A stretch of DNA of 64,000 bases, taken from contig OX437086.1 of assembly GCA_949299565.1 (NCBI GenBank), positions 228,919 through 292,918 on the forward strand, read 5' to 3'. The notes beneath the pieces were generated by a model. It saw only the letters and a list, made by a program, of their open reading frames with translations. It had not been told where the DNA came from and searched no databases. The DNA comes from an uncultured Bacillota bacterium (GTDB lineage Bacteria; Bacillota_I; Bacilli_A; RFN20; CAG-826). A program made the position numbers and the translations under genes. The first letter of the stretch is position 1, and every line of letters begins with the position of its first letter. Positions 10,878 through 16,782 of this stretch are shown here, one piece after another.

Positions 10878-11276
10878 GGGGCCGTTTTGGCTTTGACGTG
10901 GAATTGATCGGTAAGGACTGCAGTGGCGTGATTAGCCATAAAATCAACAAACAATAACCGACAAACCGAGTTATTTCCATGCGATGCCCACAATGCGGAC
11001 ATCGTACGCTTGCGCTTAATAAGTAGCCCAAGGGTTTCCCTTCTGAGATAAGGGAGCAGCGCGTCCTCCTTTTGGTGGCATCTAACAAAAGATGAGGGCG
11101 TTATATTAGATGCTGGGCACTGAATCTTGGTCTTGATGAGGTGCTAAGAAACAAAGACCTCGCCTTAGAGTCTTGATTGTATTTAACTCTAATGGTTAAA
11201 CATGATGCAGTCTAAACTGTAGACGTCTTTATGCGAGATTTTACGGACAGGGGTTCGAGTCCCCTCGGCTCCACCA
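10878..11276 (+). ncRNA. ssrA: transfer-messenger RNA (tmRNA)
   Basis: tmRNA frees stalled ribosomes and adds a degradation tag to the unfinished protein. The 5' end GGGGCCG pairs with CGGCTCC just before the 3' ACCA, forming the alanine-type acceptor stem. The T arm GGGGTTCGAGTCCCC is perfect and CCA is encoded, so this is a one-piece tmRNA of 399 nt. The tag frame ends at a double stop TAATAA (11017-11022). Reading back to a UAACC|GAC context, like UAGUC|GCA in E. coli, gives a resume codon at 10960 and the 19-residue tag DKPSYFHAMPTMRTSYACA. The tag starts with DK and ends in A-x-A, as in mycoplasmas, instead of LAA. The ends are certain; the resume codon is inferred. Confidence 0.95.
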
Positions 11277-11377: not shown

Positions 11378-11514
11378 GTGGAAAAGACTAAACCAAAAAG
11401 ATTCACTAATGAATTTAAGCAAAAGTAATTAAGGAACTCTTGAAAGACACTTATAAAGATTATCAATGTCTTAATTATCTCGATATTAGCGCGAACGCTT
11501 CCTTCCCGAATTAA
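11378..11514 (+). pseudogene. remnant of an IS3-type transposase OrfA
   Basis: A GGAGG site and GTG start open a frame reading VEKTKPKRFTNEFKQK, which is the beginning of many IS3/IS150-type OrfA helix-turn-helix proteins. It stops at TAA (11426). A one-base frame change continues the match as KVIKELLKDTYKDYQCLNYLDIS, ending at 11514. No rest of the transposase and no terminal inverted repeats are visible. It lies about 100 nt downstream of ssrA, a favoured site for insertions. The 11277-11549 interval holds nothing else I can support. Confidence 0.45.
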
Positions 11515-15118: not shown

Positions 15119-15185
15119 ATACAACAATTAAGTGCGTACTTTTTAATATTGAATCTTTATTTACCATATATTGAGGAGACCGAAT

Positions 15186-15947
15186 ATGGATGAAGATTTA
15201 GTGTGGTGCATAAATTATCTTAAAAACATAAACCATCTTACTGAGGAAATTCATTTAACTCCCGAACTGGCCTTAAGAGCGTTGATGAATATTACAATGC
15301 CTCTTTCTTTAAGTGATGAATTTTATGAAAGACAAGACAAAATTTTAAAAAGACTTATAAGCCGAAAAGAAACAATTGACGTTGAGAATTTAGAAGAAAT
15401 CAGGCCACATATCTCGATAGTGAAATCTGACATTGTCTCTCTTAAAGCTGATGCGATTGTCGATGCTGGAAATGAAAAGTTATTAGGTTGTTTCCTGCCT
15501 TTACACGGTTGCGTCGACAACGCGATTCATTCTTTCGCTGGATTAGAAGTAAGAAGAGATCTTTTAAAAATGATGGAAAGGCAAGGACATGATGAAGCGT
15601 GCGGTCTAGTTAAAGTTACCAAGGGCTATAATCTTCAAGCCAAATACATTTTTCATACAGTCGGACCTCAGATCATTCATCGCGTTAATGAGAAAAACGA
15701 GAGAGATTTGAAGAGTTCTTATCTATCATGTTTAAAAAAGGCGGATGAAATGCATCTAAAAAGCCTGGTTTTCCCATCAATTTCGACAGGAATTTATGGA
15801 TATCCAATTGAAAAAGCCTGTAAAATCGCGATTAATGTCACGAAAAACTATCTTTTAAATTCCAAGATCAAACGTGTAGTTTTCGATCTTTTTTCTCAAG
15901 GTGATTACAATGTCTACTTTGATGCAATTAAAGAAAGCTATCGATGA
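15186..15947 (+). CDS. zinc-containing macrodomain, protein-ADP-ribose hydrolase
   Basis: Macrodomain protein of the type encoded beside SirTM sirtuins; known relatives in Staphylococcus aureus and Streptococcus remove mono-ADP-ribose from proteins. After about 70 residues of helical extension, the ligand-binding core has ADAIVDAGNEKLLG, the zinc-binding CFLPLHGC loop (Cys102, His107, Cys109), VDNAIHSFAG, FHTVGP and the phosphate loop SISTGIYGYPI. Length 253 is typical for this subgroup. Start 15186 follows a GAGGAG site; an in-frame start at 15171 lacks one. The sirtuin gene begins inside its last 38 nt, so the two are translationally linked. It should reverse the modification made by its partner. 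Confidence 0.9.
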   Translation: MDEDLVWCINYLKNINHLTEEIHLTPELALRALMNITMPLSLSDEFYERQDKILKRLISRKETIDVENLEEIRPHISIVKSDIVSLKADAIVDAGNEKLLGCFLPLHGCVDNAIHSFAGLEVRRDLLKMMERQGHDEACGLVKVTKGYNLQAKYIFHTVGPQIIHRVNEKNERDLKSSYLSCLKKADEMHLKSLVFPSISTGIYGYPIEKACKIAINVTKNYLLNSKIKRVVFDLFSQGDYNVYFDAIKESYR

Positions 15948-16782
15948 ATCTGAGGCGCTTGTCATCGGAGCGGGGGCAGGTTTATCAACAGCCGCAGGCT
16001 TTGAATATGGAGGCTCATTCTTTTTAAAATACTTTCGTTATATGCACGATTTATACGGTTATGAAGACATGTATTCAGCTGGTTTTCATGATTTTAGCTC
16101 TAGTGAAGAGAAGTGGGGGTATTGGAGCAAAGCCATCTATCTAAATAGATATCAAAGAGGTCCGCAAAAATTGTATTTGGAACTTAAAAAGTTGTTGGCT
16201 GATAAAAATTATTTCATCATTACCACAAACGTTGATCATCAATTTCAGTTAGCGGGCTTTGACAAAGAAAGACTTCATTACACACAAGGTGATTATGGAC
16301 TTTTTCAATGCTCCGTGCCTTGTCACCAATTGACATATGATAATCAGACACAAATTTTGGAAATGATTCAAAACATTGATCCGATAACGCACAAAATACC
16401 CTCTTTTTTAGTTCCGCGTTGCCCGATATGCGGAAGCGAAATGGAGACGAACCTTCGCGTCGATGAACGCTTTGTTGAAGATAAAGGATGGCATGAAGCA
16501 CGGAAACGCTACCTTAGATTTTTAGAAGACAATCACAATAAGAAGGTTCTCTTTCTTGAGATAGGAGTCGGGTTTAATACACCGGGCATCATCAAATATC
16601 CTTTTTGGCAGATGATGATAGAAAACCCAAAATCCGTCTACGCTTGTTTAAACCACGAAACATCACATTTTCCGAGAGAAATTGAGGAACGCACGATTTT
16701 TATTAAGAACGACATTAAAGAAACACTGGAATTTATGTTATCTATTACCAGTTTTAAAGAAACGACAGGCAATTCCTGTTGA
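15910..16782 (+). CDS. SirTM-class sirtuin, protein ADP-ribosyltransferase
   Basis: Sirtuin-fold NAD-dependent enzyme of the SirTM class, which attaches ADP-ribose to a target instead of deacetylating it. Visible are the NAD loop GAGAGLSTAAG (20-30), TTNVDHQF with Asn107, and YTQGDYG, where Gln126 stands in the place of the catalytic His of ordinary sirtuins, the hallmark of this class. Four cysteines (134, 138, 171, 174) form a zinc site. Length is 290 residues. AAGGTG precedes the ATG at 15910. In known operons the target is a GcvH-like lipoyl carrier (GcvH-L) made with LplA2; neither gene is present here, so the target is unknown. Operon with the macrodomain gene. Confidence 0.9.
   Translation: MSTLMQLKKAIDESEALVIGAGAGLSTAAGFEYGGSFFLKYFRYMHDLYGYEDMYSAGFHDFSSSEEKWGYWSKAIYLNRYQRGPQKLYLELKKLLADKNYFIITTNVDHQFQLAGFDKERLHYTQGDYGLFQCSVPCHQLTYDNQTQILEMIQNIDPITHKIPSFLVPRCPICGSEMETNLRVDERFVEDKGWHEARKRYLRFLEDNHNKKVLFLEIGVGFNTPGIIKYPFWQMMIENPKSVYACLNHETSHFPREIEERTIFIKNDIKETLEFMLSITSFKETTGNSC

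Follow-up and report, generated by a model that had tools for sequence, protein, structure and literature searches.

The commonest length of tmRNA tags is 10 amino acids, as given in the accessible part of the 2025 tmRNA database paper (PMC11915505). In the accessible part of a comparative study of tmRNA (PMC1168896), helix 5 is described together with a weak helix close to the resume codon, and no hairpin within the frame is mentioned. Among the closest described systems are those of Mycoplasma and Mesoplasma, where Lon reads an extended tag (Gur and Sauer 2008; Ge and Karzai 2009, as cited in excerpts of PMC9382460 and PMC3985003). According to an excerpt of the former, a review, it is Lon that recognizes the long tag in Mycoplasma, which lacks ClpXP. 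The locus studied here lies in the window, that is, the whole 64,000-nucleotide stretch of DNA analysed, and has the following features.

10878..11276, + strand: tmRNA (ssrA) gene, one piece, CCA encoded (ARAGORN and Rfam RF00023)
10955..10959, + strand: resume context TAACC, directly 5' of the resume codon (sequence; similar context in relatives)
10960..11019, + strand: tag reading frame DKPSYFHAMPTMRTSYACA plus TAA (ARAGORN; relatives; nonsynonymous/synonymous contrast of 0.235 in the genus)
10980..11006, + strand: hairpin within the tag frame, codons 7-16 (covariation, RNAalifold, shuffles)
11007..11013, + strand: helix 5, 5' arm, made up of the third base of the Tyr codon plus the Ala and Cys codons, with T11011 bulged
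11056..11061, + strand: helix 5, 3' arm, GCAGCG (sequence; pairing in relatives)

The preliminary description had placed a tmRNA at 10878-11276 and derived the tag DKPSYFHAMPTMRTSYACA from a double stop and the UAACC/GAC context, and both claims are borne out by the sequence, by the relatives and by two programs. ARAGORN calls exactly this interval on the + strand, with the same tag and two stops, and RF00023, a model that contains no pseudoknots, is covered in full, from position 1 to 374, at 121.1 bits (E 8.4e-47; gathering score 47). This is the sole tmRNA above the cut-off in the genome, which consists of one contig of 1,061,998 bases, is 99.98% complete and also encodes SmpB (G000:C1:314638-315048, a frame of 159 aa). 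Read from the sequence, the acceptor stem is GGGGCCG/CGGCTCC with a G.U third pair, and CCA is encoded. The resume codon GAC stands at 10960, and the stops, TAA at 11017 and a second TAA at 11020-11022, are located in the helix 5 loop. The tag has 19 residues and ends in SYACA.

Two neighbouring observations concern other parts of the window. Just 3' of the tmRNA, a short frame at 11378-11428 (VEKTKPKRFTNEFKQK, then a stop) resembles by eye the start of an IS3-type transposase and is probably the remnant of an insertion close to the 3' end of the tmRNA. At 15171-16782 lie adjacent genes for what we take, by eye, to be macrodomain-like and Sir2-like proteins, presumably as in known ADP-ribosylation operons.

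We surveyed 145 related genomes for tmRNA; 144 gave a match, 119 of them above the cut-off, and one tag was read in each of these 119, of which 116 belong to the order. The context rule overruled the ARAGORN frame in G007, G039, G050 and G070 and supplied the tag at 16 loci where ARAGORN made no call; in two f8 genomes (G093 and G108) the resume codon AAC is unsure. Within the order the resume contexts are TAACT (63 tags), TATCT (18), TAAAT (17), CAAGT (8) and six others (10 together); TAACC is found only in the window tmRNA. A double stop closes 9 of the 116 tags and is hence not general. The 31 tags of the genus are 17-20 aa long. Other genera of its family, f1, have tags of 16-19 aa like DNSYMRAPRAQSLCLA or short ones like GNRNQLAFAA, those of f5 have 17-21 aa, with Cys within the last three positions in 15 of 17, and those of f2, f3, f4, f6 and f8 have 9-13 aa; none was read in f7.

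Some genomes carry further tmRNA genes, and two such loci were left unread. In G007, of the same genus, a second tmRNA-like gene of 292 nt (L128:4894-5185; 53 bits) lies 12 kb from the normal one. Its acceptor stem has a G.U third pair, no clear tag frame is seen by eye, a phage match was looked for and not found, and it may be a decoy or a degenerate copy. G098 has two tmRNA genes above the cut-off (L054); in the second, the 5' part has diverged and the tag frame is unclear. At class level, the tags of f27, which has ClpP, and of f34, where none of the genomes read has it, have in common a long core of about N[MVI]FG..[RQ][AN]V that lies in a hairpin (L300, L301, L303, L309, L313).

The length of the window tag appears to stem from an extra RNA hairpin within its reading frame, at 10980-11006; this hairpin abuts helix 5 and encodes about AMPTMRTSY. 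The outer stem joins 10980-10985 to 11001-11006 and the inner pairs lie within 10987-10999, two of the consensus inner pairs being broken in the window sequence. Many long-tag frames form such a hairpin 5' of helix 5. A gapless alignment (A3) was made of 14 unique genus frames of equal tail length, drawn from the 31 tagged genomes: of its 154 helix cells, 93.5% are paired (a share reached by 0 of 500 shuffles), both sides have changed in 5 of the 11 pairs (equalled by 1 of 500 shuffles) and the covariation score is 0.191 against 0.058 (reached by 0 of 500 shuffles; slid versions at most 0.142), counts that are helped both by the helix string having been taken from one alignment row and by the relatedness of the rows. 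RNAalifold proposes nearly the same helix on A3 unprompted. In the alignment A1, which holds 26 of the 50 unique long f1 frames, 80.9% of positions pair and the covariation score is 0.232, each with 0 of 500 shuffles; pairs changed on both sides are not exceptional there (65 of 500 shuffles), and RNAalifold missed the hairpin on this gapped alignment. A further alignment, A2, was left out, as it placed gaps within the hairpin of three rows. One covarying pair links the third base of a conserved Ser codon (TCG/TCC) to the 5' arm of the hairpin.

Folding energies speak in the same direction with varying force. The window hairpin is only modestly better than its shuffles (z -1.87 for 10975-11012 and -1.35 for 10960-11010), and the whole tag frame of the window shows no significant folding (z -0.24; synonymous recoding p 0.17). 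Over whole long-tag frames the mean z is -0.62 against synonymous recoding and -0.95 against dinucleotide shuffles, with 10 and 11 of 67, respectively, singly below 0.05; the 36 short frames have no folding signal (mean z +0.49 and +0.27). When the last three codons, which form the helix 5 arm, were omitted, a choice made after the weak whole-frame result, every one of the 18 long-tag genera of f1 folded more stably than its dinucleotide shuffles (mean z -1.93, Wilcoxon 3.8e-6). It took this omission, and the covariation, to bring the signal out clearly. The signal so obtained is weaker in f5 (mean z -0.91, 4/4 genera negative) and weak in Mollicutes (mean z -0.67, 12/15 negative), a name that we give to G144 and its relatives on the basis of the Mesoplasma florum tag. 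Overall, 46 of 52 groups are negative, and the other six are two f8 genomes with tags of 13 aa, one f27 genus and three Mollicute genera; the ARAGORN tag of G272 was dropped from this genus test as misread.

These results allow the speculation, held with more doubt than conviction, that the covarying hairpin which adjoins helix 5 within the tag frame represents an undescribed tmRNA element, inserted several times among relatives of Bacilli (in f1, f5, Mollicutes, f27, f34 and f36), each time lengthening the tag and making it code for both RNA fold and degron. In the literature searched, part of which was available as excerpts, we found neither a printed description of a hairpin in a tmRNA tag frame nor tmRNA tags of this kind or in these groups. 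Were repeated insertion true, the recurrent P-[AST]-[MF] motifs (raw counts: 13 of 17 tags in f5 and 7 of 31 in the genus; P-[AST]-[MFY] in 21 of 29 Mollicute tags) would reflect a shared hairpin geometry or a shared preference of Lon.

A Cys in the next-to-last position is unusual among textbook tags, as the preliminary description remarked. This remark does not extend to the genus, where 18 of the 31 tags end in ACA, 7 in AAA and 6 in ARA. The 5' arm of helix 5 reads CGCT, bulged T, GC, and pairs with the downstream GCAGCG. A strict GCAGC partner is present downstream in 17 of the 30 listed tags with Tyr, the 13 rows without it being left out of the count; among these 17, TAC goes with GCAGCG in 11 and TAT with GCAGCA in 5, with one exception (G028). 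Because the Tyr codon covaries with its partner in this way, TGC appears to be held by pairing, so that helix 5 would seem to account for the Cys codon as well. Tags ending in Cys itself (AAC, ACC, ACAC) occur repeatedly in f5 and also in one genus of f3 (L012, L027, L033, L059, L071, L075, L076, L094, L121); by eye, their TGC derives from the GCTGC motif of helix 5 read in a shifted register.

The search of the genome for clpX, clpP and lon that had been proposed as a check found ClpX and ClpP absent and Lon present. There is no ClpP match (PF00574), and the best ClpX match, at 26 bits, is far below the cut-off of 370.75. No HslU was found among the AAA_2 matches either; the only strong one is a ClpB-like protein (705 aa open frame), and HslU is therefore apparently absent. 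Lon is encoded by an open frame of 786 aa (TIGR00763, 894 bits) and FtsH by one of 728 aa (753 bits). Across the 145 genomes, Lon occurs in 129 and SmpB in 133, the genome of the window included, and ClpP in 39. ClpX exceeds the cut-off in three, two of them outside the order and the third fused to an unrelated enzyme on a chimeric-looking contig; no credible ClpX was found in the 142 genomes of the order, some of which are incomplete. Since many of the relatives' genomes are incomplete (down to 61%), single gene absences in them carry little weight. Uncultured orders of this kind have been described (PMC10868615, available in part), and the order surveyed here may be one of them, RFN20. Among 24 named records that contain a related Lon, 22 bear the label Bacilli, Bacillales, Erysipelotrichaceae, Erysipelotrichia or Firmicutes, the other two being a Fusibacter and a Bacteroidales record, and five titles name rumen, omasum or horse faeces.

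In three f1 genomes (G002, G018 and, by eye, G046) a divergent ClpP stands beside a type IV coupling protein and is, for this reason, probably not the housekeeping enzyme; in G066 the stretch read shows no coupling protein. At L238:2338-4582, L239:4115-6527 and L241:994-4020, all in genomes without ClpX, such a divergent ClpP-like peptidase adjoins a VirD4/TraG-type coupling ATPase. The peptidase of L241 is a tandem pair, the first member of which lacks the AASM serine motif; a similar tandem pair occurs at L240:245-1333, where the 4.5 kb read include no coupling protein. The ClpP-like/coupling ATPase pair may represent a mobile element or an unusual partnership of ATPase and peptidase.

With ClpX, ClpP and apparently HslU absent and Lon present, Lon would be the likeliest reader of the tag, by analogy with Mycoplasma. 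The main reader could also be FtsH, with Lon clearing unfolded proteins only: FtsH is present in this genome, and in E. coli it degrades membrane-associated tmRNA-tagged proteins (PMC3985003, in the part available). We regard this as unlikely, however, as FtsH is membrane-bound and Mycoplasma, likewise without ClpXP, uses Lon for its long tag (PMC9382460, in the part available). The reading that we favour, and consider probable, is that this tmRNA, with SmpB, adds a 19-residue tag that is likely read by Lon, that the tag is long by virtue of the in-frame hairpin, and that its residues answer to two demands. SmpB-tmRNA is predicted to rescue ribosomes stalled at mRNA ends; translation of the frame from 10960 would then pass the hairpin and helix 5 and end with release at the double stop. 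To judge from the protease set and the Mycoplasma analogy, the tagged proteins would most likely be degraded by Lon, with FtsH perhaps as a second reader. The hairpin may aid folding of the tmRNA or its passage, and helix 5 would encode the Tyr-Ala-Cys end of the tag. Because hairpin and helix 5 encode parts of the tag, its internal residues and its Cys would be set by RNA pairing together with the degradation signal.

Another explanation of the length is that long tags arose as a consequence of ClpXP loss, with Lon taking over, as proposed for Mycoplasma, of which this order would be a parallel case. In one direction the counts within the order agree with it. Of the tagged genomes, 22 have a strong ClpP, every one of them with a short tag, and all 76 long tags belong to genomes with no ClpP match (65) or with a divergent, partial or weak one (11, beside 1 short tag), G046 (201.8 bits) having been assigned to the weak group after it was seen beside a coupling protein. 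Mollicute-side genomes also fit, with ClpP in 0 of 60 and 23-31 aa in the 29 tags read (1 of 30 loci gave none). On the other side, 17 tagged genomes of the order without a ClpP match have short tags, and in the wider class the rule fails both ways. The ClpP-bearing f27 has tags of 21-23 aa in 4 of 7 read, and one of 7 tags in f24, also with ClpP, has 16 aa; 12 tags read in f26, f29 and f31, all ClpP-less, have 8-10 aa, as have the ClpP-less genomes read in f9 and f25. ClpP loss as the cause of long tags thus holds in one direction within the order and is rejected class-wide, where long tags occur without it and it occurs without long tags. A tree-based test on independent pairs in the order was not significant (2-3 of 7 pairs differ in tag length, median p 0.5), all differing pairs lying in the expected direction. 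We consider the explanation by ClpXP loss rather improbable.

A tree of Lon, built by a quick method with no mixture model, bears on the history of the tags; in it the row of G018 was mis-extracted and has a very long branch, and the joining of G143 and G144 is flagged as a long-branch meeting. The families f8, f6, f2 and f4, all short-tagged, branch first in the order, f5 groups with f3 (SH-aLRT 97), and long tags arose at least twice within the order (f1 and f5), apart from Mollicutes, whose single row falls outside the order on the flagged long branch. The idea of a tag system between those of Bacilli and Mollicutes is thus not supported: the first-branching families are short-tagged, the long tags of f1 and f5 are separate and the Mollicute row lies outside.

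The tag may, alternatively, no longer be a degron, ribosome release being the selected function and the peptide being dictated by the fold of the RNA. The wide drift of tag ends in the order (ACA, ARA, AAA, CLA, AAC, ACC) and the position of the Cys codon in a paired arm agree with this. Nevertheless, the tag peptide is still under constraint. The nonsynonymous/synonymous contrast amounts to 0.235 for the genus, 0.124 for the RAPRA group and 0.182 for f5, values close to the 0.197 of the relatives' short tags, although the protein-based alignment from which they come favours low values and constraint on the RNA acts too. Moreover, the start DNSYMRAPRAQ is near-invariant over many genera, and a pair swap in the hairpin of these RAPRA tags is synonymous. 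We accordingly hold a purely RNA-dictated peptide to be quite improbable. That the tag frame is misread and translation resumes elsewhere can practically be dismissed: ARAGORN picked another frame in four relatives (those overruled above) and none at 16 loci, but the comparison with related tmRNAs that the preliminary description called for gave a conserved context and alignable peptides in the same, predicted frame for the 31 genus tags, which makes another frame unlikely.

A second, largely uncultured clade in which ClpX was not found and the tag is changed offers independent cases for testing the idea that ClpXP loss changed the Mycoplasma tags, and this first class-wide look speaks against its simple form. 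The extended tags seem to be built around an RNA hairpin, and tag sequences would therefore not be pure protease signals. Tags ending in Cys or YACA, with the matching Lon, would also be new orthogonal degrons, if they work.

A long-tag tmRNA in a bacterium without ClpXP is already known from Mycoplasma. As far as the literature searched goes, part of it in excerpts, what is new is the clade, the YACA, CLA and AAC ends, the co-occurrence of such tags with an order-wide lack of ClpX, and a tag frame that holds a covarying hairpin. The preliminary description placed the tag system between those of Bacilli and Mollicutes and named Lon as the reader of mycoplasma tags. The absence of ClpX and ClpP, the presence of an intact Lon and a long tag ending in A-x-A are shared with Mycoplasma, and Mollicute frames, too, often fold into a hairpin, with a weak mean signal. 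The DK start does not support the likeness: DN opens 25 of the 31 genus tags and DK only that of the window genome, so that this resemblance is probably due to chance. The two systems also differ in that the window tag ends in YACA, not in NYAFA or ALAA, has 19 residues against 23-31 and is of separate origin on the Lon tree. Mycoplasma-type tags can be recognized by a length above about 20 aa and an NYAFA or similar end, and the window tag has 19 aa and SYACA. With the short tags of the GN..AFAA type in ClpP-bearing families of the same order it shares the kind of resume context and the tmRNA body, and it differs from these tags of 9-13 aa, whose frames have no folding signal. Compared with one-piece bacterial tmRNA in general (RF00023), it is set apart by a tag of 19 residues instead of the commonest 10 and by an extra hairpin that its tag frame forms ahead of helix 5; in its full match to the model, tRNA-like ends, CCA, resume context, stops in the helix 5 loop and accompanying SmpB, it is a tmRNA like any other.
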